Shown here in pieces: positions 1 to 21,082 of a stretch of 21,082 nucleotides of DNA. Origin of the DNA: a virus. The stretch's first letter is position 1. Each line of letters begins with the position of its first letter. The notes beneath the pieces are model-generated. The model saw only the letters and a list, made by a program, of their open reading frames with translations, did no database searches and was not told where the DNA came from. The stretch lies in the IMG/VR virus record IMGVR_UViG_3300030202_001807, positions 1 through 21,082 of that record; one strand, written 5' to 3'. The position numbers were made by a program, and so were the translations under genes.

Positions 1-3000
1 GAAAGAACCAGTAGTGGAAGAACCACCACCACCGCTTACTGTTGTGAACGATAACGACCCACTACCATTGGTAGTTAGAACCTGCCCGTTACTACCATCA
101 GAAAGCGGGAATGTGTATGTGTCGTTGAACCTAATCTTCCTATCAGGACCGATTCTCAATGCTTCTACTGCATTCTCATGTCCTGCTGATTGTCCTGTCT
201 TCAACACTATTCCTGAACCTGAATCGTTAGTCGCTACCGAGTTAGCGATAATCAATGTGTTATTGTCAGTTGAATCATTATGGAAGACATCGGATGAATG
301 TCCAATGGATGAGTGAATTGTAGTACCATCCAACATGAAGTCTATGTATGGTTGGTCTAACTCACCTGAGTTATCTGAATCTGCCCTCAGTGATAATACT
401 GCATCTCCTGCACCTCCACTTACTATCAGTGTGCTACCATCCCAAGTAAGATTTGATTCTGCATTCATGGCATCTGTGCCTGTTGCAGTTACGATTCTGT
501 TGTTTGAGCCGTTGGTCATGAAGTCAGATACGTCTACTGAAATTGCATTTGCTGCTACATCTATACCAGTTCCTGCACCGATGTTGAGTGTAGCAGAACC
601 ACTAGTTGCACCACCAGTCAGACCGTTACCCGCTACAACTGCGGTGATATCACCACTACCACCACCCGCAGTTACAGCAACTCCTTGTATAGTAATGGCA
701 TTTGCTTCTAGTGTGCCTCTGAAATGTGCATCCTTGAACATTTTGTCAGAACTTCCCAAGTCTACATCATTGTTACTTTGAGGTATTAATCCTCCATCAA
801 ACAAATTAATTTGTTGAGTACCGTCTATTGCAAATGTGATTTGGTTATCTGTACCGAAATCAATTGAAGCACCATTAGAAGCATAACCTATCGCTAAACC
901 TGTATTAAAGACAGAAGAAATACCTGTTTGTGCAGCCGTTATTGCTACGTCATTTGCATTAGCAGTTATGCCAGTACCACCAATAACATTGACTGTTACT
1001 GCTCCACTACTTCCCCCACCTGTTAATCCAGTACCAGCAGTGACTCCTGTTATGTCTCCTGCTACTCCAACAAGGTCAATCGTACCATCAGAATCCTGAT
1101 AGGTCGCAGTAATGTTAGTTTCAGTGTTACTAGAGAACATTGCACCTACAATATCTTGAATCGCTTCCGTTGTCGGAACATCACTTGTATATGCAATAGT
1201 AGAAGCAGTTCCCCAATTCGTAGCATCTTGGTCTGCTCGGTAGTGATAGATTCTCTTTGTGCTGTTCTTAGCGAATGCCAATAGGTTTGCATCTCCACCT
1301 GTATGTCCTGTGAATGAATCTAGCACCAAGGCATCAACGTAGTCACCAGCGTTAGTGGTTGAACCATCCTCTAATCCTGTCTTTGTTGAGAACTTTACTG
1401 ATAGTTCTCTAATGTCGTTGCCTAGGTCTTCAGGAGCAAAGTCCCTATCATCTACGGCCTTCAGATAAGGAGCATGTAATGTTCTGAAATCCAAGTCGAA
1501 TGGGTCTGAATCTGAACCCGGAGATATGTCAGTATAGTTGATGCCTACACTTGTATCTCCACTCCTGAACTTAATCTCTTCAGCGTTTGATATAGAGACC
1601 TCAGTGCCATCATCATCCTCTAGAACGAATGTCATTTGAGAAGTGATATATCCATAGTTCTCAATCTTCTCCTTGATTGCTTGGGAAGTCATTAGAGAAG
1701 TGTCATTGTCGGAGAAAGAAGTATTGATTGAATTAACTGTCGCACCGCTTCCAACTTGTAACTGTTTAACATCTACAACTCCACCAGTGTTGACAACCAG
1801 CGTGTCATTCTGTGCCGTACCTTCTATCTTGAATGGATATGTGTCACTACCAGCGAAGTCCTTGACTACTAATGCACCACCATCAGTATAGATGAAGAAC
1901 TTTCCTTCTGAGTTTTGTATGTTAAGCCCAACACCTCCTGATTGACCCTGATTGCTTGCAGTTATACTTCCCTTCACTTCTAGTTCAGTGGAAGGGTCAT
2001 CAAGTCCAATTCCGACACTACCACCTTTGAACCATGAGTCTCCACCTGCACTCAATCTTAGGTTTGTATCGTATGTTGCAGGGTTTAAACCAGTATGTGT
2101 TCCGTCATATACGTCCCATGCAGTAGCGGTTGAAGTTAGGTTTATCACACCATATTGTGTTTCACCAGCATTACTGCTCCCGCCATAATGGAATTGAATT
2201 ATTGGCTTTGTTCCATCAGCACCGGAAACGTGATGCCACTTACTGAAACCCCAGTTGAAGTTATATTCGTGTGCAGACATACCACCTCCATCGCCGTTCA
2301 CTTGGAACATATAGTCAGCAGCATTGTGGTCACTAGTCGCACCATGTCTGAATCTGATTGCTGGCCCTTTAGCAGTGCCACTGTCTGCTACATCCAATTT
2401 CAATGTCTCAGCATATGAGAATTGAGTTGCAGATGATGGAGCAAGAGCAGATACTACCTCCAACTGAGATGCAGGACTTGTATTTCCTATACCTACCTTA
2501 CCTGCATCATTAATGGTCATGAAGGTGTCTCCACCTGTACCAGTGGTATGTCTACCAAACTGAATATACGAGTCAGAGTTGTTGGAATTCGTGTCCATAT
2601 TCAGACGAATCTTGTCGTATGAGTTGATGGTTAGACTGTCATTGTAATTTCCGTTCTCGGTAGAAGTGATTGAGTGGTTCAGATTTGTTCCGTAGTTATC
2701 TGCGTCCCATGTGAAGTATAGACCACTGAAGCGATATAGGTTGCTTCCTACTCCATTTGCCACTCTACCCGATACATCTCCACCGAATCTGACCTCATCA
2801 TCGGTCTGTGTTCCGAATACTATATCTCCACCTAAGTCTGAGTTTAGTGCAGAGATAACCTCTGCATTACTCAGTTGGGTATCTGAGTTAGTTATTGCTC
2901 CTGTTGCTGCACCTAGATATCCCCATTGTGCTGCCGATATTGTTGTAGAACCTATGTTCTCTAACTGTGCTCCCTCTGCTGCTGTTAAGTTGGATATCTC

Positions 3001-6000
3001 AGTGACCTTGCTTGCTGTTATAGTAGGGATGTGAGATGCTGATAGGTTCGCTGTTATGTTACCAGCAGCAGATAATGCCACTCCTCCTGACGCTGATACC
3101 GCTACTGTTCCTGCTGCATCAGGCAATGTGATTGTTCTATCGGCTGTTACAGAACCTGCTAGTAGAGTTACCTCATTGCCATCTGCTTGATTTCCTTCAA
3201 ATATTACACCATTGCTTGTGCTTACAGTTTCTACATTGTTAGTTGTAGTTGTTCCTGTTACAGTCAAATCTCCTGCTACGGTCATGTCATTGTTTACAGC
3301 GATAGTTCCACTGCTAGATGTTCCAAGCGAGTAACTAGCAACATCATTCAGTAGAGCAGTTATCTCAGATGCCGTTTGGTCTGCTGTTGCAGATGCTTCA
3401 ATGGCGTTTAACTTAGAGTGGTCTGCATCCGTAAATACATTGGAGTTTGTTGCCGACTCAACTAGAGTCCTTATTTCTGCGGCTGTTTGGTCGGCTGTTG
3501 CACTAGCCTCGATAGCATTGAGTTTGCTTAGTAGGGTATCTGTTAGATTATTTGTGTCAGATTCATTGAATAGTGCCGTCTTTATCTCCGCTCCTGTTTG
3601 GTCGGCAGTAGCACTTGCTTCTATTGCATTCAGTTTCGTATGGTCTGCATCTGTAAAGACATTAGAATCAGATGCTGACTCTACTAGTGTCCTTATTTCA
3701 GAAGCAGACTGGTCAGCAGTAGCACTTGTTTCTATTCCATCTAGTTTGTTCTTGAGGGTTGTTGTGAAGTTGTTGTCAGTTTGGCTTGCTACTGAAAGGT
3801 CTATGTCTCCTGTTGAGTCTTGGTATGTGACAGTGATTCCACTCTCAGTGTTTGTAGTGGTAAACATTGCTCCTACAATATCCTGTACTTGTTCATTTGA
3901 CAGTTGAGTATTGGTATCTGTTGTCATATCGTCTACAACGAGGTCAATCGTTCCGTCACCATCTTCGTAGGTAGCACTTATTCTAGTCTCAGTGTTTGAA
4001 CTAAACATCGCTCCTACAATGTCCTGCACTTGTTCTGTTGAGAGTTGTGTGTTGGTATCCGTTGGTGTCTCCCAAGCAACTCCGCTTCCTGTTGAAGTTA
4101 ATACCTGTCCGTCACTACCTTGACCACCATTTATCTTGAAGTTCTCAGAATCAACTAAACCAAAGTAAGAATTTTTGAACTTGAGAGATGAAGTTCCTAA
4201 ATCCACATCGTTATCAACAGGCGGATAAATTGCACCATCTGTAATGTAAATTTGGTCATCACCATTTGCTCTGAGTCTTAATTGATTGGATGAATGCATA
4301 TAGGTGATTCCGCCAGCAATCTGATTAGAGGAATTATAGAAAAAGATAGCATCGTTATTCACATTTCCATTACTATCCCTTTTGAAATTAAGACGACCAT
4401 ACAAAGAAGAAATATCTATGTCGCCTGTTTCATCAAGTGTTCCTGTTATTGTTGGAGTTGCTATTGTCGGTGAAGTTAGAGTTTTGTTAGTCAAGGTTTG
4501 ACTACCTGTAAGTGTAGCAACTGTTGAATCAATGGCTAGAGTTATGTTTCCACTTGAACCGCTATTTGCCCCACCAATACCTGTTCCAGTTGTAATTGTC
4601 TGATTGTTCTCTCCACCTGCACCTGCTGCTACAAGAGTGAAGCCTCCACTTGTATCATCATAACTTAGTAAATGATTATCAGTAGAAGAGTTTGCAGTAT
4701 TTGTTGTACTTATTTTGGCTGCTGTAATAGCGTCATCCGCAATCCTTGCAGTTGCAAAAGTTCCCGATGTAATCTTAGATGCTGCTAGGTTTGGTATATC
4801 AGAAGCAGATAGATTTGCACTGAATGTCTTACCTGATAGAGAAAGACCCGTTCCAGCAGCCAAATGTTGAGTGACGTTTGATTCAGCGATTCTTGCATCT
4901 GCAAAAGTTCCCGAAGTTATTTTGCTTGTAGCAAGACTTGGTATTCTAGCAGTTCCTAATGTCCCACTTGTTATTTTGGAAGACGCTAAGTTTGGTATAT
5001 CACTTGCTGCAAGCCCATCGTCTAGTATGTTTATTTCTGCTAAGGAAGCGGTAATACCTAGATTTGTCAAGGCATTTCCTTGTTGCGTAGAGGTAAGTCC
5101 TTGATTACTAACGTCAACTCTTAATCTGTTTCCTAACGATGTAGCGGTTGTTGTGGAGAAAGAAGCATCGTCACCAAGAGCAGCAGCGAGTTCGTTCAAG
5201 GTATTGAGAGCAGATGGTGATGAGTCTATTAGTCCTGCAACTTCGCTATCGACATATGCTTTTATCGACTGTTGACTAGCAGCAGCAGTTGCACTGTTTG
5301 AACTCATGTCATTTTGGTCTAGTAGTGTCAATTGTGTGTTAGTGTCAGTTGAGGCAATTGTTATCTCTCCACCACTTTCACTTAGAGATACATTGCTACC
5401 CGCAGTGAAAGATAGAACTTCTGTTCCTCCTAGTATGTTTCCGCCAGTCAATCTAACTGTTCTGAAAGTGTTGGTGTCTGCTGTCATGTCGTCAACGACT
5501 AAATCTATCGTTCCATCTCCATCTTCGTATGTTGCAGATACCCTAGTCTCAGTGTTGCTTGTGAACATAGCACCGACAATATCCTGCACTTGTTCGGTGG
5601 TTAGTTGGGTATCAGAAAGAGAAATAGTACCGTTACTAGAGGGAATAGTAAGGTCACTAATCACATTGTTATCGCTACCAACAAAAGATAGAGTTGCTCC
5701 ACTTGATGCGGCTGCTCCGGTTGTTACTCTAAGGTTAGTAGTAGTTGCTCCAATTAGTTGAAAACTATTAGAAAGTGTCTTATCTCCTGTGGCGTTCAAG
5801 TCTATTGTTCCATCACTATCCTCATATGTTGCTGAAATACCTGTTTCTGTATTAGAGGAAAACATTCCTCCAACTATATCTTGAACGTTTTCAGTAGTGA
5901 GAATAGTATCAGTGGTGAATGAAAGGTTGCTCTGCATGTATGATTGTAGTACACTGACATCCATTCTCTTCAATACACCAGCATCGCTTAGAACCAACTC

Positions 6001-6312
6001 ATCAGTAGAAGCAAGCCCACTTGTCAACGCTGATTGTCCTGTGATATCTCCTATCACGAAGTTAGATGCTCCTGAAGAAACAAAGTTCTGTGCTGCTATG
6101 TAGTCGAAAACTGCATCACCAGTGACTAGGTTAGCATTACCATCAGCAACTGAGCCAGTTGTTGCGGCTATCGTGGAATCAAATGACAAAGTTCCATCGT
6201 CATTGATTGTGATTGTCTTGGTTGCATTATTAGCACCAGTAACTTCTATCTTTGGTTTTGCACTCTCTCCTGTGTTTGGCGTAATTAGAATGTCCTTATC
6301 TGAGTTAGCCAT
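1..6312 (-). CDS. Giant modular tail fibre B, 3'-truncated by window edge
   Basis: An open frame begins at ATG 6312-6310 (MANSDKDILITPNTGES...) and continues without a stop to base 1, giving 2104 visible codons; the C-terminus lies outside the window. It is probably a trimeric tail fibre or receptor-binding protein. Five DIVGAM-type repeats lie near residues 137-165, 232-270, 750-790, 800-840 and 1710-1745. A 155-residue block around residues 328-484 is paralogous to fibre A. Four KLNAIE..ATADQ-type units lie at about residues 852-984. Two VGIG..P..LEV modules lie near residues 1269 and 1431, followed by a less repetitive stretch at about 1454-1720 (ENYGYITSQMTFVLEDDDG...). Two VDLGSS..KFK segments, a common prelude to fibre tip domains, lie near residues 700 and 1840. 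The last visible part is Gly/Ser-rich. The start overlaps the fibre A stop (TAATG) and has a strong ribosome binding site. Fibre identity rests on repeat style; the receptor is unknown. Confidence 0.85.
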   Translation of the reverse strand, partial: MANSDKDILITPNTGESAKPKIEVTGANNATKTITINDDGTLSFDSTIAATTGSVADGNANLVTGDAVFDYIAAQNFVSSGASNFVIGDITGQSALTSGLASTDELVLSDAGVLKRMDVSVLQSYMQSNLSFTTDTILTTENVQDIVGGMFSSNTETGISATYEDSDGTIDLNATGDKTLSNSFQLIGATTTNLRVTTGAAASSGATLSFVGSDNNVISDLTIPSSNGTISLSDTQLTTEQVQDIVGAMFTSNTETRVSATYEDGDGTIDLVVDDMTADTNTFRTVRLTGGNILGGTEVLSFTAGSNVSLSESGGEITIASTDTNTQLTLLDQNDMSSNSATAAASQQSIKAYVDSEVAGLIDSSPSALNTLNELAAALGDDASFSTTTATSLGNRLRVDVSNQGLTSTQQGNALTNLGITASLAEINILDDGLAASDIPNLASSKITSGTLGTARIPSLATSKITSGTFADARIAESNVTQHLAAGTGLSLSGKTFSANLSASDIPNLAASKITSGTFATARIADDAITAAKISTTNTANSSTDNHLLSYDDTSGGFTLVAAGAGGENNQTITTGTGIGGANSGSSGNITLAIDSTVATLTGSQTLTNKTLTSPTIATPTITGTLDETGDIDISSLYGRLNFKRDSNGNVNNDAIFFYNSSNQIAGGITYMHSSNQLRLRANGDDQIYITDGAIYPPVDNDVDLGTSSLKFKNSYFGLVDSENFKINGGQGSDGQVLTSTGSGVAWETPTDTNTQLSTEQVQDIVGAMFSSNTETRISATYEDGDGTIDLVVDDMTTDTNTQLSNEQVQDIVGAMFTTTNTESGITVTYQDSTGDIDLSVASQTDNNFTTTLKNKLDGIETSATADQSASEIRTLVESASDSNVFTDADHTKLNAIEASATADQTGAEIKTALFNESDTNNLTDTLLSKLNAIEASATADQTAAEIRTLVESATNSNVFTDADHSKLNAIEASATADQTASEITALLNDVASYSLGTSSSGTIAVNNDMTVAGDLTVTGTTTTNNVETVSTSNGVIFEGNQADGNEVTLLAGSVTADRTITLPDAAGTVAVSASGGVALSAAGNITANLSASHIPTITASKVTEISNLTAAEGAQLENIGSTTISAAQWGYLGAATGAITNSDTQLSNAEVISALNSDLGGDIVFGTQTDDEVRFGGDVSGRVANGVGSNLYRFSGLYFTWDADNYGTNLNHSITSTENGNYNDSLTINSYDKIRLNMDTNSNNSDSYIQFGRHTTGTGGDTFMTINDAGKVGIGNTSPASQLEVVSALAPSSATQFSYAETLKLDVADSGTAKGPAIRFRHGATSDHNAADYMFQVNGDGGGMSAHEYNFNWGFSKWHHVSGADGTKPIIQFHYGGSSNAGETQYGVINLTSTATAWDVYDGTHTGLNPATYDTNLRLSAGGDSWFKGGSVGIGLDDPSTELEVKGSITASNQGQSGGVGLNIQNSEGKFFIYTDGGALVVKDFAGSDTYPFKIEGTAQNDTLVVNTGGVVDVKQLQVGSGATVNSINTSFSDNDTSLMTSQAIKEKIENYGYITSQMTFVLEDDDGTEVSISNAEEIKFRSGDTSVGINYTDISPGSDSDPFDLDFRTLHAPYLKAVDDRDFAPEDLGNDIRELSVKFSTKTGLEDGSTTNAGDYVDALVLDSFTGHTGGDANLLAFAKNSTKRIYHYRADQDATNWGTASTIAYTSDVPTTEAIQDIVGAMFSSNTETNITATYQDSDGTIDLVGVAGDITGVTAGTGLTGGGSSGAVTVNVIGGTGITANANDVAITAAQTGISSVFNTGLAIGYASNGASIDFGTDNQITFAIDGTQQINLFDGGLIPQSNNDVDLGSSDKMFKDAHFRGTLEANAITIQGVAVTAGGGSGDITAVVAGNGLTGGATSGSATLNIGAGTGIDVAANAISVDVSDFMTNGSNNRIVTATGTDAMNAESNLTWDGSTLIVSGGAGDAVLSLRADSDNSGELDQPYIDFMLDGTTIHSSIGHSSDVFHNDSTDNNTLIIANSVATNDSGSGIVLKTGQSAGHENAVEALRIGPDRKIRFNDTYTFPLSDGSNGQVLTTNGSGSLSFTTVSGGGGSSTTGSF
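3361..3757 (-). repeat. Four KLNAIE..ATADQ-type repeats in fibre B
   Basis: Units have the form KL(D/N)(G/A)IE.SATADQ(S/T).(S/A)EI followed by an R(T)LVESA.(D/N)SNVFTDADH linker; one linker is replaced by KTALFNESDTNNLTDTLLS. This is a familiar shaft repeat of marine phage fibres. Related units occur in fibre A at 8700-8965. Confidence 0.85.
4860..5328 (-). repeat. Paralogous block in fibre B (copy 1 of 3)
   Basis: It encodes a run from LLDQNDMSSNSAT through QQSIKAYVDSEVAGL, LNELAAALGDD, LGNRLRV, SLAEINILDDGL, and two SKITSGT..AR units to ESNVTQH. The same order occurs in fibre A at 8221-8685 with most residues conserved, but codons differ at many synonymous positions. It indicates an old duplication or module exchange between the two fibres. 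Confidence 0.85.
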
Positions 6313-12300: not shown

Positions 12301-12884
12301 GTATGTGTCAAAGTTCCTCCCTTGTTTATCCTCAACCTCTCTGTCCCTGAGTTTATCGCTGAGAACTCCCTGTCTGCTTGGTCGTATACTAGATATTGGT
12401 GTTTCCTAGATACATCACTAAGAGTATCACCACTAGCGATTTGCACTACGATGAGAGGTATGTCTCCACTCTTTAGTTCTGCAACAGTGGCAGATGTGTT
12501 TCTAAGATTGTATCCTGTGACTCCACCATGTCTCCATTTCAACGTATTTTCTGTTTCTCCACTCTCTGAACCATCGCAAACAACAATCAAACCATACCAA
12601 TCAGAACTTCCACTTTGTATTGTGTTAGTAGTAGTATCTAGGTTAGTTGCAGACCCAATAGAAAACAACTTACCATTTCTAAGGAACTTACCGCTACTAA
12701 CAGTGAATCTAGTAGTTCCGCCATTTACACTTTGGGTTGTTAGGTCAAACCCATCTATTCCTCTGTTCTCACCAGTAGCCGCTTGAAGTGATTTTATTAT
12801 ACCACTGTGAATGTTGTCAACACCGTCTTTCAGTTGTGCTACACTAGTATCCATACCACTGATTATGCCTGTGTTTGTTGTCAT
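6312..12884 (-). CDS. Giant modular tail fibre A, complete (2190 aa)
   Basis: This is probably a trimeric long tail fibre. Residues 1-190 are non-repetitive: a short helix-like start (MDTSVAQLKDGVDNIHSGI) and a beta-rich region, plausibly the tail attachment domain. Residues 220-600 carry many A..NAVT.AKI pentad-like units. Later come KLNAIE-type repeats (about 1306-1395), a block shared with fibre B (about 1400-1554), five DIVGAM/DFV-type units (about 1615-1818) and a partial second copy of the shared block (about 1819-1912). A VGIGTATPGYKLQVEG module leads into a C-terminal domain from about residue 2075 (KSFVIPHP, LEGPEHGVY, IELPEYW, YVEKIEDN, ERKDV). I recognise that domain from fibres of T4-like cyanophages and other marine phages; it is likely the tip or a trimerisation unit. 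The start overlaps the preceding stop (ATGA), and the stop overlaps the next start (TAATG). The product is far longer than typical phage fibres of 500-1300 residues. Confidence 0.88.
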   Translation of the reverse strand: MTTNTGIISGMDTSVAQLKDGVDNIHSGIIKSLQAATGENRGIDGFDLTTQSVNGGTTRFTVSSGKFLRNGKLFSIGSATNLDTTTNTIQSGSSDWYGLIVVCDGSESGETENTLKWRHGGVTGYNLRNTSATVAELKSGDIPLIVVQIASGDTLSDVSRKHQYLVYDQADREFSAINSGTERLRINKGGTLTHTPSSTAYTLTLPSATGTVALTSDLSNLAAGSLASGAVTEAKLATNAVSTAKIVDDAVTFQKMQDLSAAYKLIGTGSASGQVSEVSIASGHLSDNAVTTAKINDNAVTSAKIANSTIVAGDLASGAVTLDKITDIAQDRILARVASGTGDVQAITAAQLRTLINVENNADVTDTANVKTALGGDLGTFTLGDSDDSTTVAGNLTVAGDLTISGTTTTIDSNNVNIGDRIITLNSDLTGTPPASEDAGIEVERGNQSNKTLVWDESAGRWTVGSETFVAGTFIGNLTGTVSSATALANARNFSISGDVTASAVSFDGTGNVALATSLAAGVVDTAELAGSAVETAKIANLNVTTDKIANQGVTSAKIADDQITADHMANNSVIQTAIADNAVTNAKLAGSIAQSKITNLTSDLAGKQATLTFGTGLSNSGATINVDIGELSVENGIDKDNDHLMFNDNGTLRKTTLTNIFSKISESNLPSLPASKITSGTFAVARIPNIATSKITSGTFSTSRIADNAVTFDKVQDVASGVILGRTTSGTGGIETISASAARTFLNVDTAGTDNSTNVTLAGSRNYLTLNGQQITVGEIDISDDTNLAAGTNISLSGDTLNVDTDLSNYSNSNSGFLTAHPTISNAQSNTTNTGRTYIQNLTFDSNGHVVGVAVATETVTDTQYSVGDGGLSQNNFTNSLKSKLDGIAADANNFILQHASASTLGGIKVGSNLTMNAGTGVLSADTQSDVNFTSALNSKLAGIATGATAGADWTSNVTNRDGNVTNAHLAGSIANAKLANSSVTVNGSTVALGGSITLTTANVAEGANLYYTDERVDDRVNALIIDGEGITTTYNDTSGELTIDAEEATASNKGVASFASADFDVSSGAVSVKSGGITNAQLAGSIANDKLLAIAQGKVTGLTAALNTKIESLSDLSVTASAAEINILDGVTGVSTAEINHLDGVTSSIQTQLNAKQAAGSYLSTSSSISDLSDVSGLDTSLVNIGGHNTSIPTTTAVKSYVDVQIFDAIDTQYTLRAVDGSTSNAKKLELAGIDGSVTSIGIQGVGDITISRNNLGLTIDSVSKPISSTSFSGNTLTITKTDGTTVTATIPDATTSVHGLMTDDQFDKLAGIETAATADQTAAEIRTLVESASDSNVFTNADHTKLNAIETGATADQTSSEIRALVESATDSNVFTDADHTKLNGISASANNYSISSDLLDEDNMSSNSATKVASQQSIKAYVDAEVAGVISSAPAALDTLNELAAALGDDANFATTTSTALGNRLRVDTNSQGLTATQQGNAITNLGITASLAEINILDDGLSASDIPSLAASKITSGTLGTARIPSLAASKITSGTFANARISEGSVTQHQAALSITESQISDLDAYLTSPRSVTAGGNSLANGETLAFTAGSNITISESGGAVTIASTDTNTQLSTEQVQDIVGAMVGSNTETNISVTYDDTGGKLNFASTDTNTQLTQEQVEDFVNGVIVAGTNITKTYDDSAGTLTISSSGKTQEEIEDIVASLVVAGSNVTKTYDDASGTLTIASTNTNTQLSTEQVEDIVGAMVSSNTETNISVTYDDTNGKLNFSSTDTNTQLSQEQVEDFVGGMLDGTETFISVSYDDTDGNIDFVVPVKDEDNMASNSATHLATQQSIKAYVDSEVAGLVDSAPGTLNTLNELAAAINDDATFSSTVTTALGNRLRVDTASQGLSGTQQSNARTNLNVDVAGTDNSTDVTLATVSNNYLSLSGQAITAGTVPLSLGGTGATSASAARSALGVDAAGTDNSTNVTLTGSGNYLSISGQAITVDPIDISDDTNLTAGTGLTLSGDTLNVNAAQSGITSVGTLSALTVSGDVVVDTNTFKIDTTNNRVGIGTATPGYKLQVEGSFAAQTKSFVIPHPTQEGKTLQHGSLEGPEHGVYHRGRITGSDNMGVSIELPEYWKELVDVDTITVQLTANGEFQMLYVEKIEDNRVFVGNAADEGVDCFYIIHGERKDVGKMEVEY
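6315..6660 (-). other. C-terminal KSFVIPHP tip domain of fibre A
   Basis: The final 115 or so residues of fibre A form a non-repetitive domain with KSFVIPHPTQEGK, LEGPEHGVYHRGRI, IELPEYWKELV, ITVQL, LYVEKIEDNRVFV, CFYIIHGERKDV and the terminal MEVEY. I know this set of motifs from the ends of fibres in T4-like cyanophages and other marine phages. It usually follows a VGIG...KLQV module, as here. A role as distal tip, trimer clamp or intramolecular chaperone is inferred. It lacks the S74 endosialidase-type chaperone signature. Confidence 0.7.
6322..6327 (-). promoter_or_regulatory. Ribosome binding site of fibre B
   Basis: GGAGGT reads on the minus strand, 9 nt before ATG 6312. It lies inside the last codons of fibre A (KMEVEY). 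It supports independent initiation at the overlapped TAATG junction in addition to possible reinitiation, and it confirms the start of the edge-truncated fibre B frame. Confidence 0.8.
7147..7426 (-). repeat. Partial paralogous block in fibre A (copy 3 of 3)
   Basis: It encodes KDEDNMASNSATHLATQQS, YVDSEVAGLV, LNELAAAINDD, LGNRLRV and QGLSGTQQSNARTNLNV. It matches the first 90 or so residues of the blocks at 8221-8685 and 4860-5328, then diverges into an AGTDNST..TL unit. It is an internal duplication within fibre A. Confidence 0.8.
7430..8040 (-). repeat. Five tandem DIVGAM/DFV-type repeats in fibre A
   Basis: Consecutive units of about 38-43 residues share a core of Q(E)QV(Q/E)D(I/F)V..M...TET.ISVTYDD..G.L.F followed by a STDTNTQLS linker. 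Two central units replace NTETNISVT with AGTNITKTY or AGSNVTKTY. Five related but scattered units occur in fibre B near 1070-1180, 3795-3910, 3935-4060, 5500-5615 and 5795-5900. They probably form successive triple-stranded beta segments of the shaft. Confidence 0.8.
8221..8685 (-). repeat. Paralogous block in fibre A (copy 2 of 3)
   Basis: It encodes LLDEDNMSSNSAT, QQSIKAYVDAEVAGV, LNELAAALGDD, LGNRLRV, SLAEINILDDGL, and two SKITSGT units to EGSVTQH. It is collinear with the fibre B block at 4860-5328 without obvious gaps over about 155 residues. Confidence 0.85.
8700..8965 (-). repeat. Three KLNAIE..ATADQ-type repeats in fibre A
   Basis: KLAGIETAATADQ, KLNAIETGATADQ and a degenerate KLNGISASANNYS are joined by EIR(T/A)LVESA(S/T)DSNVFT(N/D)ADH linkers. 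The last unit runs directly into the shared block at 8221-8685. Diverged single units (KLDGIAADANN, KLAGIATGATAG) also occur near 10020-10250. Confidence 0.8.
11090..12230 (-). repeat. Short A..NAVT.AKI-type repeats in fibre A
   Basis: Near the N-terminal end of the shaft, short units such as VTEAKLATNAVSTAKI, LSDNAVTTAKI, INDNAVTSAKI, IADNAVTNAKLAGSI and NVTTDKIANQGVTSAKI recur in two clusters (about 11090-11310 and 11930-12230). They are separated by a less repetitive stretch that includes TISGTTTTIDSNNVNIGDRI. These are typical left-handed or triple beta-helical fibre repeats. Confidence 0.75.
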
Positions 12885-13260: not shown

Positions 13261-16200
13261 TTAATCCTCGCTATCGTATTTTATTATCACACTTACGTTT
13301 CCTCTACTGAACCCAACTTCTGTTCCAGTGCTGTCTAGTTCAGCATCTAGGTTCTCGGAAGCCCCATCATCAAAGAAACCTACCTTTGCATTAAAGCCAA
13401 CGTTTGATACTGCACTTGTTCCTGAGATTGTGTAAGTGACATTAGTTACCTCTATCTTCATTTTATCAACAAAAAGAGTGGTATCTCCTCCTGTTACATT
13501 ATTCTTATTGAAAGTGGTGGCAGTATTCTGTCTCTGTCCAGTTCCTAATTCAGTTAGTCTCTCTGCTATTGTCTTGTCGAATGTTCCAACTGTCATTGTG
13601 ATTTGACTTGACAGCACGTTTTCTATCTCAAATATTATGTAGTTCCCACTTGGTATGTTCTGTGCATCGAAACTCAGGCTGACTACATCTCCTGCTTCCA
13701 ATGTTTCCAGCCCCTTTCTTTCTAAGGTTAGTTTTATTCTTCTAGTATCGCTATTGTGCAATTGCAACAACTCAACTGCTCTAACTAAAGCATCTTGTGT
13801 TGTCTTTATTGTTGAGTCTACGAATGTTATCTCTGTTCCATCTATATCCTCTGATGCAGATTGACTGACTCTATCACCTACGACTGTCACTTTGCTCGCC
13901 TTTGCAAATAGAGCAGCATTAGATTCTACTTTGAATAGCCTATTAGTCTTGTAACTTATCTCCTTCTTAACCAACAAGTCTATTCTCCCTAGTCTTCTGA
14001 AATCTATATGCTCCCCGTCTACGTTGAAATCCATCTCCTTCTTGCTTGCTAGCATATTCATCGCATCAAATGCAGATACCTCGGTGAAGTTATTCGTGGC
14101 GATGAATGTTTTCTTCTCTCTCTTTATCAGTTCGTCATTGACTAATGGGGTATACCAAAGGTCGATATCAGGGTCACTGTCAACATCATTGAATGTTATA
14201 TTGCTACCTGAGATACTGGCTACCTTGCCTATTGGTAAGCCCTCATGCGTATATATCACATCACCTGCTTCTATGCCAACAACAGCCTTCTTGCATGTTA
14301 CTATGTGGTTACTGATGCTACTGACTATGTTTCCTGTGAATACCGATTGGGTTTGGATGGTGTCAGTAGTCATTCCAGCCTCTTTTGCTATCCTATCTAT
14401 GGCAGTCTCAATCTCCTCTCCAACCAGCATGGTCGTTCCGATATGACAAGAGGTAACATTACCCAAATCAGGTTTTCTATCCAACTCTACATTTACTACT
14501 TCAGAAAAGGATACAATTCCATTACCAGTGATTGTATCGTTGAATGTCAGTTTTGACTCATACAATCTTTGGTCATCTGAGAGACCATAGGTGTATGTTA
14601 CTCTCTTTCTCTGTTTGTTAGTTCCATCAGTGATGAACATGTCAAATGTTGAGCCACTGGTACATCCTATGATTGCATGTGCAAGTAATGGGTTCACTGA
14701 AAACAACATAGAACTAGTTCTACTATTAAGAGAATCACCTCCCAATGTATCTGTATTCAGCACAACATACATCGATAGAACTCCTTCTGCTAACTTTTCA
14801 TCGAGGCTTCTAACCGCTTTCGTCTTACCTGTTCTGAAACTAGATGGTGTCAGACTGTAATCCAAGCCAGTGTAGTGAAGTCTATTGAGTATTATTTCGT
14901 TGGGAGTATCTCTGAAGGTTGTCTCTGCAAACCTCATGAGCCTGTAAATTCTATCGCTGTTGAAAGCGGAACTTCCAACTATAACATGGTCAATAGTGGA
15001 GTCGCCGTAACTTACTTGCCCTTGCGTATGTGATTCTATTCTGATGATGCCTGTTGAGTTCAATTCCCTTCTTGTTCCTAGTTCAACAGAATTATTAGCA
15101 CCTAGAGATGGGTTAGATATTGCTCCGTTAGTAACTTGATTTAGATTCTCATACCCCCTTTCAGGAACTAGGTAGTACCCTGTTAGATTCGGAACGTATG
15201 ATAGCCAATTGTGCTGTGAGGTATCGCTCTCTATGTTGATTGTTAGCGTCTTAGAATCCTGACCAAGACCATCGTTGACACTGACATTGCTATCACCAGT
15301 GTCCAAGAATGGTTTGACTAGCATCTGAGCCTTGTATATTCCACCACCGCTAGTTGTAGTAAGACGATGATATGTCTCCCTCTTTCCTGATACTTGTTCA
15401 TCCTCCAACGATTCCAAGAATGTTATGTTTCTATTATTGACACTAGAAACCATATCCTTCCTCATGCTATTGATACCACTGAGAGAGTAGTAGTTACTTC
15501 CTTCATTGAAGACAATCGTGTTTCTTGTGTTCTGATAGACCTGACTACTAGACACATCAGTAGCACCTATCCAAGAGGTATAGTCTGATGATGTGTTCAC
15601 ACCTAGTCTAGCACTAGTTTGAATCATGTCAGGATTCGGACCTGATGTAGATACCTTTCTTATATTCCTGAAAACACCAATGCAGTTGTTATATGGATTT
15701 GCGTCATCAGAGTATCCCAACTTATCTAAGTCAACTAAACTGGTAGAAGTAGTTTGGTTAGATACGTTGCTTGCCAAAACTCTCGATGAATGATAGTAAT
15801 GACCACTGTAATCTGAATGACCACTCCAAGCATAATCAGGATGATATGGGCTGACATCCCTACCTGCGGGACTTGTACTAGAGGTGAGAGTATCGAAAAC
15901 AATTGGAAAGAGGATATTTGGTGCATCGAAGTTATCCGTGTACTCAATTATATCAGTGCCTGAAGCCACTTGAGTTCTATTGAGATAGAAGAAGTTGTCA
16001 TCTGCATTCGTATCTAGAGTCAAGGTGTTTCCACTCTTACTAGACCAACGAATCCTGACTCCATTCACTTCTCCAACACCTGCATTAGAGAAGGAAGATG
16101 CACTCGATACTTGTAGCGTGGTACTTCCCCCCACATAAGTAGCACTTGTTTGTGTGGTAACGTCATCTCCCCTGAGATTAGCGAAGGAAAAACCTGTTGA

Positions 16201-19200
16201 CTCATAGTTAGGTCTAACTAGGAATATGCTTGTTAGGTCAGTTTTACCTTCCTTCTGATTATCTGTCTCCTCATCCCTCAAGACTCCCTTGAAGATTGGA
16301 GAAGTAAAGGTCAAGTTTCTATATTCAGGACTTATGTATACTGGTAGGTCAGTAATGCTATCACTTGTGTTCAGGTATCCGGTCATTCCTTGCCAAGTAT
16401 TAGACACTGAATTGATAGCAACGGCACTCCCACTTGCGATTGTTACGTCAGAACCACCATCCTTGTATCCCACCATTTCACCAGTATCTACTCTGAATAT
16501 CGCATCACCAGCACTCAGAGTAATGTTAGAGCCAGTCGTGTGTTCAAGTTGTACGACATTGCTACCAGTGATGCTAAGTGTGAGATTAGTAGCAGGAGTT
16601 CTAGCCTTAAACATCTGATAGTTCAAGAACGTTACTTCTGATTCTTCAGGTGTCGGCATGTTATCGGAATCAACTGGATTGAAATGCCAGTCGAATGTAG
16701 CCTCCACTAACCGAGCAATACCGAATCTCTTCAGTTGGTCGGTTGTTTTGGTTGCAGACTTTATCGGTACAGACTCAAAGTTGCCATCCCGTATATCGGT
16801 CATGCGGGTAGTTCCATCATAGTCCCTGTGATTCACCACTGTTGCTGATTGTGCTCCCTCTGATTGCAGAAGACAACCTAGTTGACTGAACTCAAGGGTA
16901 TTTGCTGAAAGGTTGTTGTACCTCAACTTGGAGTAAGGATACAAGTCACCTGTGCTGTATATCTCATACACCTGTGCCTTGTCATCTATGTTCTTCAAGA
17001 CACTAGATGAAATCGGTACTCTTGAACTAGTGGTACTTGTTCGTGTCAGTAAAGATTTCTGTGGTGGAGTCTTATCAGTACCACCAGTGTCATCTACGAA
17101 TGGGCCGGATGCTGTGTTCAACATAGTCAGGTCATCATCTAGGAAGTTGCTGCCTAGAAGGGGTCTGTTATTTGCTATGTATGTTGAACTACCTAGCGTT
17201 CCATCTGTGTCTATCGGATGTGATATGGCATAGGAGTTTATCTTAGATGCTGATTTGTATATTCCAGCATCCTTGCCAATCAAAGTTCCATCATTGAATT
17301 TCTGTAAATCCCAATATCTGTATACATTGTCACTTGTGTAGATTTTCTGTGAAACGTTTCTTGTGAGTCTATGTAGGAATCCACCGTTGTTTATTGGGGT
17401 ATTCAATAGGTAGAATGAGTGATTACTTCTAGTATCATCCTCATTGTTGACTACCCTACCTAGAACCAATGGACATCTTGGTGCAATCTCCATTGTTGCT
17501 CCTCCATCATCCTTGCTCTCAAAGGAGATGACATCATACGACTCACTTGCCAGTGACATTATACTAATATCTTCAGTATCTACACCTGACTCATTTACAG
17601 TCTTAAGTGCAAACACAGAGTCTGCTGATGATAGTGTATTAGTTAACTCATCTATGCTAATTGTTTCGCCTATGTCGAAACCAAGCGTTCTATTATTCAC
17701 GAAAGAGCCTAACTTGTGTATTGAACTGTTGGAGGTAGCACCAACGGTATCAACTGTGTTCGATGTTCCCTCTAGTTTTCTTGTGCTTAGAGTTCCGTCA
17801 TCTGCTCTGAAGAAACTAACGCTGTCTTGGAAAACCACTCCCTTGTCACTCACTCCCTTGAAGTCGGTTGTAGATGTAATCTGAGGATTGCTCCCAAGTG
17901 CCTTTACTCCTGAGAGATAGTTGGAAAACCTATATGGGTCAATGAATCGGACATTCTTACTGCTTCCAGTGTGAATCGATGAATGTTTTAGAGTAACAAC
18001 ATAGTTGCTACCAACTGTGGCCTTGCTCTCCACTTCACCAATTATCTCACCAGTTGTCATTACAGCAATGGAATGTTTTGGGGCGTTTCTATCTCCACTA
18101 CTAGTAGGCCAAGTAACAGTACCAGTTATTATTCCGCCTGATGTTGTGTTAGTCACTGTTGTATCTGCATTATTTGTACTCTCCCCAACTTGAGGAAGAA
18201 CAGGATTCAAAGTGCTGAATATCATATCCTCAGTATGATTGAGGTTTCTGTTCACCAACTTGTTAAGCAACGCAGATGAGTTGTCCCTACCTTCGATAAT
18301 CATGGTGGATAGACCATTCTCAGTCATGTTATCAGTGGATTCTACTATTCCACTGAATGCCTCTTGTTGAAGACTGAATGAGTTATCATAATAGTAGAAC
18401 CTTTGAATGTTGGAACTCTGATAGAACTTCCTACTTGCGTCTTGAATCTTGACGTATTGCATGTTTCTATCGATGAAGTCAACGAGGTTCTCATGATGTG
18501 AAAGTGAATTGAAAGTAATTCTTGAATTGTAAAACTTGGTGTTTTCCTTGTTGATTGTAGAATCTGATACTGACAATCGGTGATTGTCTGCATATATGAC
18601 ATCAGTTTCAGAGTCAAAACCATCGGTATTTAGTACGCCTGTCCAAAATACAACTTTTGGAACTAAATTCGTAAACTCATGAACTGTTGCTCCTGTACTG
18701 AAAGTATTCTCTGTTTTGGTCTTGCGAGCCTTGGTTGTTAGAACCTGACTACCTGAACTTTTACTAGCGAATGACTGAACAACATAATAGTAGTCTCCTA
18801 TCTCTATGATTGAGTTCACTGGTAGTTTTTCAGATAGTTGATAGTCATGGGCTGAATCTATCTGTGTGAAAGTGATAGTATTTGCACCAGTAGTCTTAGA
18901 GGCTAATACTGGTAGTTCCTTCATTGTGGTCTTATCACTAAATTTAGTGTGAAGAACTTTGAGTTTCTGCCCTCTTTGTATTTTATGAGGTAACATTCCT
19001 GAGTTATTGAGTCCTATCATCTTTGCAATCTTGCTCATTCTGTTTCTTGGGCTATTGACTATGATATCCGACATCGGGCTTATCTTATCGTTCCTGAAGG
19101 GTTTTGGGTCTGATGTGATATATCTAGCAGGACCATTCAACTCTCCATCGAAGTGAGTTGCATTATCAGTGACAGTAGTGCTATCTTGCTCATGTCTTCT

Positions 19201-20451
19201 CATATTGACGAATGACTTTCTCCAAAATGAAGGGTTGAAGTTATTATCTGAGTTGTCAGTGCTTCTCAAATTGTCTACAAGTATTGCATCCAACTTCTGT
19301 CTGCCTTTGTTTGGTATTGCTCCTTTTATCATCGCTTCAGTTCTGAATACTACGTTCTGTATTCCTCTACCGATTTTATACGTCTGAGAATTACCTGTAT
19401 CTGCACTTATCGCTATTCTAGCAAAATCTAGTTGAAAGAAATTTCCACTAATATCCTTTATGTTTCCTAAGAATACGTTACTGCTATTGAAGATGGACAT
19501 TCCTTCGCACAACTTTTCTGTATCACTGGAACTTGCAACTTCAAATCTAACAGAACTACTGCCTTCTTGATATTTGGTGTGTGCATCAGTATCCGTGATT
19601 GTTATGTTAGTTAGAGTAGAGAACCATCGTAGTCTAGTTAGAGTGTACTTCTCCATGTAGTCTAACTGGTCATCCTGCTCAAGTCTGTCATTGTAAAAGT
19701 AAAACGTAGGCTTGCTTACAAAATTAAGCACATCGTAGTTGTCAGTGCTTGCATTGGCATCTCCTCTTAGACCATAACTAACAGCAACTACATCAGTCGC
19801 TGTCTTTGCTGGTCCTTTGAATACCTCAAACTGAGTTCCTTTTGGTATTGGTACGGGATACTTGGGTGAGAACTCTAATCCATCGCCAAACTCATCGAAA
19901 CTAGTTATTCCTGTTATCTTTGCAAAGTGTGGTCTAACAGATGTCTGAGTCGTAGAACTAGTGTCTTGTATTATGGATGGGTTGAGCAGGATGAAGTAGT
20001 CGTAGTTGTCTATATCGATTCCTAGTGTGTCGGTATCAGGAGAATCTTGAGTGTTGTAGACGAACTTTCTGTTAGTATCGCCACTTGCATCAGAACTATA
20101 CACCTTTATTTTGAACGGAGCAGAGTTGTCTCTAGCAGTTCCATAATCAGAAAGAGTTGTATTTACAGGCAGTATTCTGTTTCCTATGCCTGTGTTTGAG
20201 TCATTTGAGATGCTGTTATCATGTGGTCCTTTTCTTATTTCAGTGAATATCGCTGATGGCACTGAAGTAACTGATGAGGTGATGTTCTCTGAATCAACAT
20301 GAGTTGTCTTCAAGATGGGATTAACAGTCACATCTCTGAACGCTGTTCCAGTGCTGAACTCAGATAGTATGTTATCGTAGTTTGAACCAGCATCAGCAAT
20401 GTTCTTCTGAGAGGACATTGGATATGTGAAAGTTCCATTTGCCTTAGCCAT
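13261..20451 (-). CDS. Giant hub-like baseplate/tail protein (2396 aa)
   Basis: The start is placed at ATG 20451 (MAKANGTFTYPMSSQ), one base after the preceding stop and with GGTGA 5 nt upstream. An upstream in-frame ATG at 20490 would overlap the preceding gene and lacks support. Two stretches recall the gp27/late-control-D hub fold. At about residues 690-745, FSGIVES...STMIIEGRDNSSALL matches the 'G.V...i.gRD...LL' signature. At about residues 2104-2294, VTVVGDR, a helix-like DALVRAVELLQLH, KLTLERKGLETLEAGDVVSLSF and IPSGNYIIFEIENVLSSQITM resemble the distal half of tail-associated hub proteins. Some 1350 residues separate them, including several copies of a small G..VG.V..ISG.NIT module and a His/Tyr-rich stretch near 1532-1557. 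The last 85 residues form an extra beta-rich domain. No lysozyme or HExxH peptidase motif was seen. The likely role is baseplate hub or adsorption platform; hub homology is an inference, the virion role is fairly secure. Confidence 0.75.
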   Translation of the reverse strand: MAKANGTFTYPMSSQKNIADAGSNYDNILSEFSTGTAFRDVTVNPILKTTHVDSENITSSVTSVPSAIFTEIRKGPHDNSISNDSNTGIGNRILPVNTTLSDYGTARDNSAPFKIKVYSSDASGDTNRKFVYNTQDSPDTDTLGIDIDNYDYFILLNPSIIQDTSSTTQTSVRPHFAKITGITSFDEFGDGLEFSPKYPVPIPKGTQFEVFKGPAKTATDVVAVSYGLRGDANASTDNYDVLNFVSKPTFYFYNDRLEQDDQLDYMEKYTLTRLRWFSTLTNITITDTDAHTKYQEGSSSVRFEVASSSDTEKLCEGMSIFNSSNVFLGNIKDISGNFFQLDFARIAISADTGNSQTYKIGRGIQNVVFRTEAMIKGAIPNKGRQKLDAILVDNLRSTDNSDNNFNPSFWRKSFVNMRRHEQDSTTVTDNATHFDGELNGPARYITSDPKPFRNDKISPMSDIIVNSPRNRMSKIAKMIGLNNSGMLPHKIQRGQKLKVLHTKFSDKTTMKELPVLASKTTGANTITFTQIDSAHDYQLSEKLPVNSIIEIGDYYYVVQSFASKSSGSQVLTTKARKTKTENTFSTGATVHEFTNLVPKVVFWTGVLNTDGFDSETDVIYADNHRLSVSDSTINKENTKFYNSRITFNSLSHHENLVDFIDRNMQYVKIQDASRKFYQSSNIQRFYYYDNSFSLQQEAFSGIVESTDNMTENGLSTMIIEGRDNSSALLNKLVNRNLNHTEDMIFSTLNPVLPQVGESTNNADTTVTNTTSGGIITGTVTWPTSSGDRNAPKHSIAVMTTGEIIGEVESKATVGSNYVVTLKHSSIHTGSSKNVRFIDPYRFSNYLSGVKALGSNPQITSTTDFKGVSDKGVVFQDSVSFFRADDGTLSTRKLEGTSNTVDTVGATSNSSIHKLGSFVNNRTLGFDIGETISIDELTNTLSSADSVFALKTVNESGVDTEDISIMSLASESYDVISFESKDDGGATMEIAPRCPLVLGRVVNNEDDTRSNHSFYLLNTPINNGGFLHRLTRNVSQKIYTSDNVYRYWDLQKFNDGTLIGKDAGIYKSASKINSYAISHPIDTDGTLGSSTYIANNRPLLGSNFLDDDLTMLNTASGPFVDDTGGTDKTPPQKSLLTRTSTTSSRVPISSSVLKNIDDKAQVYEIYSTGDLYPYSKLRYNNLSANTLEFSQLGCLLQSEGAQSATVVNHRDYDGTTRMTDIRDGNFESVPIKSATKTTDQLKRFGIARLVEATFDWHFNPVDSDNMPTPEESEVTFLNYQMFKARTPATNLTLSITGSNVVQLEHTTGSNITLSAGDAIFRVDTGEMVGYKDGGSDVTIASGSAVAINSVSNTWQGMTGYLNTSDSITDLPVYISPEYRNLTFTSPIFKGVLRDEETDNQKEGKTDLTSIFLVRPNYESTGFSFANLRGDDVTTQTSATYVGGSTTLQVSSASSFSNAGVGEVNGVRIRWSSKSGNTLTLDTNADDNFFYLNRTQVASGTDIIEYTDNFDAPNILFPIVFDTLTSSTSPAGRDVSPYHPDYAWSGHSDYSGHYYHSSRVLASNVSNQTTSTSLVDLDKLGYSDDANPYNNCIGVFRNIRKVSTSGPNPDMIQTSARLGVNTSSDYTSWIGATDVSSSQVYQNTRNTIVFNEGSNYYSLSGINSMRKDMVSSVNNRNITFLESLEDEQVSGKRETYHRLTTTSGGGIYKAQMLVKPFLDTGDSNVSVNDGLGQDSKTLTINIESDTSQHNWLSYVPNLTGYYLVPERGYENLNQVTNGAISNPSLGANNSVELGTRRELNSTGIIRIESHTQGQVSYGDSTIDHVIVGSSAFNSDRIYRLMRFAETTFRDTPNEIILNRLHYTGLDYSLTPSSFRTGKTKAVRSLDEKLAEGVLSMYVVLNTDTLGGDSLNSRTSSMLFSVNPLLAHAIIGCTSGSTFDMFITDGTNKQRKRVTYTYGLSDDQRLYESKLTFNDTITGNGIVSFSEVVNVELDRKPDLGNVTSCHIGTTMLVGEEIETAIDRIAKEAGMTTDTIQTQSVFTGNIVSSISNHIVTCKKAVVGIEAGDVIYTHEGLPIGKVASISGSNITFNDVDSDPDIDLWYTPLVNDELIKREKKTFIATNNFTEVSAFDAMNMLASKKEMDFNVDGEHIDFRRLGRIDLLVKKEISYKTNRLFKVESNAALFAKASKVTVVGDRVSQSASEDIDGTEITFVDSTIKTTQDALVRAVELLQLHNSDTRRIKLTLERKGLETLEAGDVVSLSFDAQNIPSGNYIIFEIENVLSSQITMTVGTFDKTIAERLTELGTGQRQNTATTFNKNNVTGGDTTLFVDKMKIEVTNVTYTISGTSAVSNVGFNAKVGFFDDGASENLDAELDSTGTEVGFSRGNVSVIIKYDSED
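13265..13269 (-). promoter_or_regulatory. Ribosome binding site of the 125-aa connector gene
   Basis: GAGGA on the minus strand, 6 nt before ATG 13258, lies within the final codons of the hub gene just before its TAA at 13263-13261. It is weaker than the two fibre sites. Confidence 0.6.
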
Positions 20452-20452
20452 C

Positions 20453-21082
20453 TCACTCACCAAACGTATAGTAGAACAAAGTATCACCAAAGTTCGGTGT
20501 CAATGTGGATATAGTAGCACATGGTTGAAGTCCCTTGTGCATTGAAACTTCATACAACTCACCCATGAACTGAGTATTCGTGTTTGAACCATCCTGCCCT
20601 ATGTAGCAATCTACATCATCAAATTCAAAATTCTCAATGTCTAGTTTCTTCTTCTGCACTAGCACATTGTTCAAGTAAAGGTTAACATGTCTCTTATCGA
20701 AGGAGCAAGATACCTTGTTCAATTGCTCAAGATACAGTGCCTCTCTTGGTTGTGATATATACATGGTTGAGGTAATGGGTGTAGCAGGTGAAGCAGTTAA
20801 GGTGATATTGTTGCCACTTACTGATGAAACAGTTCCAACTAAAACACCTGCGTTATTGAAAACCTGATTACCAGCACCAACATCATCAGCCTCTCCTGAA
20901 CTGACGGTAAACGCATTACCACTACCACCACTAAATGAGGACAAAGTAACCTGTGAGGACATGTTAGATGTTCTAGCCAATGCATGACTTCCAGTTGGTG
21001 CGGTTGCTGTAACAGTCACTACATTGCTGGATGCAGATGCATTCATTGCAGGACTGAACTGAGCATGTCCATTTGAACTGGC
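20453..21082 (-). CDS. C-terminal part of LamG/concanavalin-like virion protein, 5'-truncated
   Basis: The frame is open from the right edge of the window, so the true start lies outside; the ATG at 21046 is probably internal, because 12 sense codons precede it in frame. About 209 residues are visible. The last 100 look like the C-terminal half of a laminin-G/concanavalin A-like jelly roll: VSCSFDKRHVNLYLNNVLV, then FEFDDVDCYIGQDGS, QFMGELYEVSMHKG and the closing DTLFYYTFGE. Such domains usually bind glycans or act as adhesive modules on virions. Ahead of it, at about 20755-20910, is a Gly/Ser-rich beta module (NNAGVLVGTVSSVSGNNITL) that also recurs in the hub protein and may be inserted within the jelly roll. 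The gene ends with TGA one base before the hub ATG, so the two are probably cotranslated. It could be a tail tip, baseplate decoration or receptor-binding protein. Confidence 0.72.
   Translation of the reverse strand, partial: ASSNGHAQFSPAMNASASSNVVTVTATAPTGSHALARTSNMSSQVTLSSFSGGSGNAFTVSSGEADDVGAGNQVFNNAGVLVGTVSSVSGNNITLTASPATPITSTMYISQPREALYLEQLNKVSCSFDKRHVNLYLNNVLVQKKKLDIENFEFDDVDCYIGQDGSNTNTQFMGELYEVSMHKGLQPCATISTLTPNFGDTLFYYTFGE
20457..20461 (-). promoter_or_regulatory. Ribosome binding site deciding the hub gene start
   Basis: GGTGA on the minus strand, 5 nt before ATG 20451, overlaps the last codons of the lectin-like gene. The junction reads TGAGATG, a one-base gap. This favours MAKANG... 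over the in-frame ATG at 20490, which would give 13 additional hydrophobic-rich residues. Confidence 0.65.

Follow-up and report, generated by a model that had tools for sequence, protein, structure and literature searches.

A giant tail-hub-like protein of uncultured marine viruses with a large insertion that appears to be exchanged between viruses

The window, a 21,082-base stretch of an IMG/VR virus record (IMGVR_UViG_3300030202_001807), encodes a protein of 2,396 residues that is likely to be a tail-tip hub in which the conserved hub frame is split and a giant insertion, exchanged between viruses, makes up the distal part that faces the host and perhaps closes the tube (table 1). Hubs are trimers that end the tail tube and are commonly viewed as conserved tail hardware, with fibres and separate receptor-binding proteins as the seat of specificity; in the window, around half of the hub protein would be a swappable block within the hub fold. 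The original prediction, made from the sequence of the window, had described a very large hub-like protein, and this description is borne out by the 2,396-residue open reading frame and by a C-terminal region that matches hubs both by fold and by profile.

Table 1. Predicted features of the window and of the hub protein that it encodes (aa, amino acids).
Feature	Residues	Window position	Strand	Basis
Second giant fibre-like protein, at least 2,104 aa, cut by window end		1..6312	-	ORF
Giant fibre-like protein, 2,190 aa		6312..12884	-	weak DUF5907 repeats
Small conserved protein, 125 aa		12881..13258	-	phrog_5417 (unknown function), E 4.6e-5
Giant hub gene, 2,396 aa		13261..20451	-	ORF call
C-terminal extension	2300-2396	13264..13554	-	ORF/alignment
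Hub C-part, hdII-hdIV equivalent	2010-2299	13555..14424	-	Foldseek, VIA-align, hhalign, phrog_1887
Small beta-barrel inside C-part	2037-2112	14116..14343	-	VIA-align to EF1A domain 2, Z 6.5
Giant insertion (cassette), ~1,275 aa	~736-2009	14425..18246	-	fold bounds, recombination breakpoints, trees
Optional beta-barrel module in insertion	1430-1504	15940..16164	-	VIA-align to 9n71_A
Small beta-barrel module in insertion	754-837	17941..18192	-	VIA-align to Gar1, pb9 OB domain, aIF2-gamma, Z ~6
Putative hub domain I, last hairpin and helix	688-735	18247..18390	-	profile hits, VIA-align
Insertion 1 inside hub domain I	508-687	18391..18930	-	AF2 model, VIA-align
Putative hub domain I, first part	451-507	18931..19101	-	VIA-align, strands in model
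N-terminal extension	1-450	19102..20451	-	AF2 model, VIA-align, conservation
3' end of LamG-like protein gene, upstream of hub		20453..21082	-	Laminin_G_3, E 2e-4, below curated cut-off

The gene runs on the minus strand from an ATG at 20451, which overlaps the stop of the upstream gene, to a stop at 13261. Relatives were found at 41 loci in a first search and numbered 163 in a search by profile; those that are intact and full-length span 2,142-2,538 aa and share the layout of the window protein. A shorter relative with both hub parts inside 1,200 aa was sought and not found, the shortest intact one having ~2,142 aa. Dozens of independent contigs contain the gene as one long reading frame, which excludes both a chance ORF and a chimera. 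Indeed, although one relative (L022) has its hub gene in two ORFs, an artefact of fused reading frames or chimeric assembly is highly improbable given more than 50 full-length, single-ORF relatives across many metagenomes and a mosaic that is the same in two of them (L076 and L077, described below). The two ORFs of L022 (469 and 1,820 aa; L022:9995-16905) may reflect a frameshift, a fault in assembly or a gene that is truly split, and the genes that adjoin them agree in length and start with those of L007.

Whole-protein scans of the window protein returned no Pfam or PHROG family over its curated cut-off and sub-threshold matches only, including a Phage-tail_3 match at residues 262-312 that carries no evidential weight. 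Phage_GPD (PF05954) was found neither in eight relatives nor among the Pfam matches to the window protein. A tblastn search of 50,697 phage records with this protein and with the divergent protein of L087 gave zero matches, and a profile of the whole-length hub retrieved no PDB sequence.

The C-terminal half was modelled with AlphaFold2 (residues 1131-2330; 62-sequence alignment; pLDDT 74, pTM 0.68), and a Foldseek search with this model returned 32 chains below 1e-3, every one of which is a hub or hub-like spike (E-values: T5 pb3, 5.6e-7; Mu gp44, 1.7e-6; HFTV1, 1.5e-5; the matches also include MuSo2, CIS hubs, lambda gpJ and GTA). Pairwise structural alignment with VIA-align gave Z-scores of 10.1 to JBD30, 9.6 to MuSo2, 8.9 to HFTV1, 8.8 to Mu gp44 and 7.6 to gp27, with residues 2010-2299 aligning to Mu gp44 106-340, T4 gp27 124-360 and the HFTV1 hub 130-365, so that in short hubs the matches begin at residue ~105-150. 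The modelled region thus appears to be a baseplate-hub fold without the first ~110 residues, that is, without the first barrel. Profile comparison points the same way: hhalign of the C-part against halovirus hub proteins gave an E-value of 9e-7, or 2e-9 once the small internal barrel was excised, and phrog_1887 (tail protein) matches a relative at 1.6e-7. The motifs from which this half of the hub was first proposed lie within it (VVGDR, 2190-2194; LEAGDVVSLSF, 2251-2261; GNYIIFEIEN, 2269-2278).

The best position for the absent first barrel, proposed with moderate confidence, is residues 451-507 plus 688-735, where the first part has predicted strands at 460-466, 475-481 and 496-507. The AlphaFold2 model of the N-terminal half (residues 1-1140; 62-sequence alignment; pLDDT 74, pTM 0.60) agrees with an independent BFVD prediction of a relative (TM 0.7, 30% identity), and VIA-align superposes residues 451-732 on residues 23-118 of the AlgoCIS hub (rmsd 2.1, 83 aligned, Z 6.0) and 17-115 of VgrG, at Z-scores of 5-6 that are level with those of unrelated barrels. 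When a profile of residues 440-745 was compared with 177,635 PDB sequences, just two chains were retrieved at E<=10 and both are hubs, neither significant alone (MuSo2 43-kDa, residues 70-108, E 0.11; Mu gp44, residues 63-95, E 1.9); both align on a GxVxx...GRDxxxxLL motif, the region of FSGIVES (699-705) and IIEGRD (718-723) in the window protein. Within insertion 1, residues 510-600 look like small beta barrels of HerA type; weak Prophage_tailD1 matches in relatives, where located, also fall within this insertion and were not counted. The N-terminal extension ahead of domain I is well conserved (61-95% identity among close relatives) and holds a further small beta-barrel module.

These N-terminal matches are weak, and they could also be read as in lambda and RcGTA, where hub domain I is found in a separate protein (gpL and gp13, respectively; PMC10721106): the window protein would then have hdII-hdIV only, residues 451-735 would be an unrelated barrel, and hdI would come from the 242-aa protein encoded near the hub in relatives, the LamG-like protein or another protein. 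A Foldseek search of the PDB with the N-half model had no hit below 1e-3, and hhalign of the domain I region against halovirus hubs gave no signal, as this arrangement would predict; however, the two regions of the window protein cover complementary hub ranges (17-118 and 105-340), the only profile hits fall on the Mu-type GRD motif, and both flanks share a phylogeny. We therefore regard a hub with its first domain elsewhere as unlikely, and favour two parts of one hub in a single chain, as the original prediction had proposed, with the N-terminal part held at lower confidence. Both motif regions go beyond chance, the N-terminal profile finding only hubs and the C-terminal region matching hubs by fold and profile, and structure prediction with fold search of both returned complementary hub parts and not unrelated domains; the kinship of the halves is also apparent from their common phylogeny, which the piece between them does not share.

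The putative frame (451-507, 688-735 and 2010-2299 minus the small barrel) sums to ~320 residues, the size of a minimal hub, and is interrupted by 180 aa in domain I, by ~1,275 aa at the hdI/hdII boundary and by a 76-aa barrel in the C-part. A giant insertion of beta modules between the hub parts, perhaps of spike, adhesin or arm type, had been anticipated, and residues ~736-2009 do contain two small beta barrels; the huge gap, first put at about 1,350 residues, measures ~1,275 by folds (735 to 2010) and ~1,470 from motif to motif. The ends of the insertion are set by fold matches and, independently, by recombination breakpoints at 726-752 and 2002-2049. According to the models, it sits at the hdI/hdII boundary, where T5 pb3 has its smaller tube-closing insertion. 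The premise that the two parts of a hub usually lie close together was too narrow: T5 pb3, lambda gpJ and the R4C megatron have insertions close to this site that reach several hundred residues, a size range that is here extended to more than 1,000 residues.

Small beta barrels recur across the protein, both outside the giant insertion (279-360, 510-600, 2037-2112) and inside it (754-837, 1430-1504). The 1430-1504 module aligns to residues 103-177 of the Mystique tail tube (9n71_A; Z 7.6, rmsd 2.1, 22% identity) and is present in a minority of relatives (mean occupancy ~0.1-0.2); residues 1430-1479 share 47% identity over 49 residues with the upstream LamG-like protein of L013 (L013:8837-11788), and a module of this type lies at a shifted position in the L009 hub. 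Given its minority presence and its likeness to the LamG-like protein, such modules appear to be mobile between tail genes. Other stretches of the insertion are well conserved (851-1100, 1151-1260 and 1836-2009), which argues that it is not a purely variable adhesin but has a structural side as well.

Comparison of relatives shows that the insertion has its own history, having been exchanged between viruses, whereas the hub halves have been inherited together. When breakpoints were placed by an unsupervised fit to pairwise identity profiles, the window and L008 showed 82% identity outside and 44% inside a fitted segment of 750-2012; three further pairs (L075-L077, 744-2016; L009-L087, 726-2049; L005-L008, 745-2020) have 84-90% identity outside and 39-46% inside, and breakpoints were also fitted at 743-2002 (window-L001) and 740-2017 (L082-L077). 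The exchange boundaries match the fold boundaries. Shorter stretches have been replaced in L048-L051 and L023-L038, and two control pairs (L012/L015 and L013/L014) had no breakpoint at the junctions, so that exchange is not universal. These profiles also rule out the insertion as evenly conserved structural material. Fourfold synonymous identity drops inside the insertion as well (78/43/94% for L048-L051 and 68/43/54% for L075-L077, insertion in the middle), which indicates more than relaxed protein constraint, within the limits that saturation sets on this measure; for L009-L087 and window-L002, the C-part falls to the same level as the insertion.

Exchange shows most clearly in the crossing of nearest neighbours in L077, which shares 93% identity with L075 in domain I and 82% in the C-part but 38% in the insertion, whereas with L071 it shares 45% and 57% in the same frame parts and 68% in the insertion. 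The same mosaic is present in L076, which comes from a different metagenome, and the nearest neighbours of L008 and L042 cross in like manner. Trees of 58 sequences, compared by splits, agree with this pattern: the N-flank and C-flank trees have 41 of 55 splits in common, whereas either flank has 26-27 in common with the insertion. In topology costs derived from site likelihoods with KH-type resampling, forcing the insertion topology on the flanks costs 3.3-4.2 log units per site, compared with 0.2-0.4 for the topology of the other flank. The two flank topologies also differ slightly from one another (KH p <=0.003), and recombination is thus not confined to the junctions.

Because the insertion is exchanged independently of the frame, variation in it seems to be under selection, most simply by the host surface, and from these sequence patterns we infer a receptor role for the insertion. 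We hypothesize that three hub copies would seal the tail tube at its tip, in the manner of T4 gp27, T5 pb3 and HFTV1 gp44, and that the frame would stay constant by keeping the contacts with the tube, the tape measure and neighbouring tip proteins. The insertion, hanging below this ring, would form the distal part that faces the cell and might include an element that shuts the tube. It would be exchanged by virtue of facing variable host surfaces, and contact would cause it to open or come away, so that the tape measure and DNA could exit.

The insertion could instead be mainly structural, a tube plug with a peripheral skirt that lacks host specificity and diverges because its contacts are few. 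A large hdII insertion closes the tube in T5 and GTA (PMC10038345), the R4C megatron carries a large peripheral domain ahead of its central domain (PMC10276861), conservation is high in parts of the insertion, and the products of the giant fibre genes are obvious candidates for adhesins in its place. However, the crossing neighbours of L077, L008 and L042 speak of replacement and not merely of fast drift, and a part with a purely structural role should share the history of the frame; a mainly structural insertion is accordingly a less probable reading, though one with some weight. As a more specific form of the host-facing reading, we tentatively suggest that the frame acts as an unchanging socket in two pieces, into which an interchangeable cartridge of ~1,275 aa fits, and that recombination in the flanks swaps the cell-facing tip, so that specificity could change with the fibres untouched. 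If the block does meet the host surface, cassette type would serve as a sequence marker for the host range of uncultured viruses, and swap experiments would exist ready-made in the natural mosaics.

Among known hubs, those of the haloviruses HVTV-2 (gp134) and HCTV-2 (gp44) (Druskaviridae and Saparoviridae) are homologous to the window hub in the C-part (the 2e-9 match above) and, as here, are encoded soon after the tape measure, with one small gene between in HVTV-2 compared with genes for a 242-aa and a LamG-like protein here. They are far shorter (476 aa for gp134, which was named a hub by annotation and not by structure, and 476-489 aa in the group, compared with 2,396 aa), and their C-part follows the presumed first barrel after only ~180 aa. 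T5 pb3 resembles the window hub in holding hdI-hdIV in one chain with a big insertion near the hdI/hdII boundary; however, pb3 has 949 aa in all, its insertion is a few hundred residues long, including a structurally proven plug, and its C-part starts at ~439 compared with 2010 here. A linker between two tube domains has grown in T5 into hdII and the plug-bearing insertion (PMC10038345). The R4C megatron (1,447 aa) has a peripheral and carbohydrate-binding block ahead of its central hub domain (PMC10276861), and two megatron structures (8gtc_M and 6tba_8A) match the window C-part by fold in VIA-align; the R4C/RcGTA block is about half the size of the window insertion, and its exchange is not mentioned in the excerpts of the literature on these systems. 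HFTV1 gp44, an archaeal-virus hub of 953 aa with a solved structure, matches by fold (Z 8.9, 16% identity), yet its extra domains, among them a predicted C-terminal carbohydrate-binding domain, follow the hub core and do not lie inside it; the HFTV1 hub is a trimer that is jettisoned on ejection, and fibres attach at its N-terminus (PMC12494034). Mu gp44 and the MuSo2 43-kDa protein share the motif that closes domain I and, like T4 gp27, have the same C-part fold, but all three are minimal hubs of ~360-390 aa from contractile tails and lack a large insertion. A recombining specificity cassette internal to a hub, or exchange of such an insertion, was not found in the open-access literature searched, within which the novelty lies in the size of the insertion, the architecture in one chain and, most of all, the exchange.

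The gene neighbourhood is consistent with a tail-tip function. In the loci checked, the order of LamG-like protein (~840 aa in relatives), hub, a protein of 110-125 aa and giant fibres is constant, the small gene adjoining the hub gene in every one. The longer L001 contig places the hub downstream of the tape measure within a tail module (connector, tail-terminator-like protein, tail tube, tail assembly chaperone, 663-aa tape measure, 242-aa protein, 857-aa LamG-like protein, hub, small protein and fibres). Its tail tube belongs to PF18906 (3e-18), and among phage records the relatives' tail tube is matched only by haloarchaeal siphoviruses; the 242-aa protein had no sequence match to the halovirus gene that follows the tape measure. 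No sheath was seen in the L001 tail stretch, and a non-contractile tail is likely as part of the overall reading. The two giant fibre-like genes stand in tandem at window positions 1-12884, and their equivalents in relatives reach 3,204 aa.

The hub gene probably belongs to widespread, uncultured marine tailed viruses of archaea, a group of which a cultured member was not found. Nine of 10 relatives' records encode family B DNA polymerase, the records in question (as distinct from the window contig) being of 84-98 kb and the tenth of 48 kb; the polymerase is split in most relatives into two ORFs of ~550-576 and ~300-330 aa (L100-L107). One relative of this size range also encodes an ATP-dependent ligase, a clamp-loader-like AAA protein (weak Rep_fac_C) and a weak TFIIB zinc ribbon. 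Genome size and split polymerase resemble the Magrovirales, viruses of Poseidoniales, whose Aoguangviridae have sheathless tails and 90-100 kb genomes with a split PolB (PMC10768690). The MCM and PCNA_N Pfam models and a chaperonin were not found in relatives, so that assignment to a Magrovirales-like group is only probable. One 84 kb relative carries class II ribonucleotide reductase domains (L121:7298-9226; PF02867 and the RNR-II insertion domain). A contig of 18.8 kb assigned to a Maricaulis MAG (L118; NZMJ01000124.1) encodes a hub relative of 33% identity; it is probably a mis-binned virus contig and otherwise a hint of a bacterial host.

Exchange may reach beyond the hub gene. The tape measures of L008 and L001 (L008:4764-6728; L001:4698-6686) share 45% identity amid tail genes of 91-98%, and from these sequences the tape measure looks to be exchanged as well; the L008 tape measure resembles that of L003 at its N-terminus, so that tape measure and cassette types are seemingly not linked. 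Finally, three BFVD entries match the N-half model at 18, 14 and 8% identity (A0A516LI86_1, A0A516LT38_1 and A0A1B1IU10_1; E 3.5e-42 to 7e-12), and by their predicted structures may represent more distant viruses with the same kind of protein.
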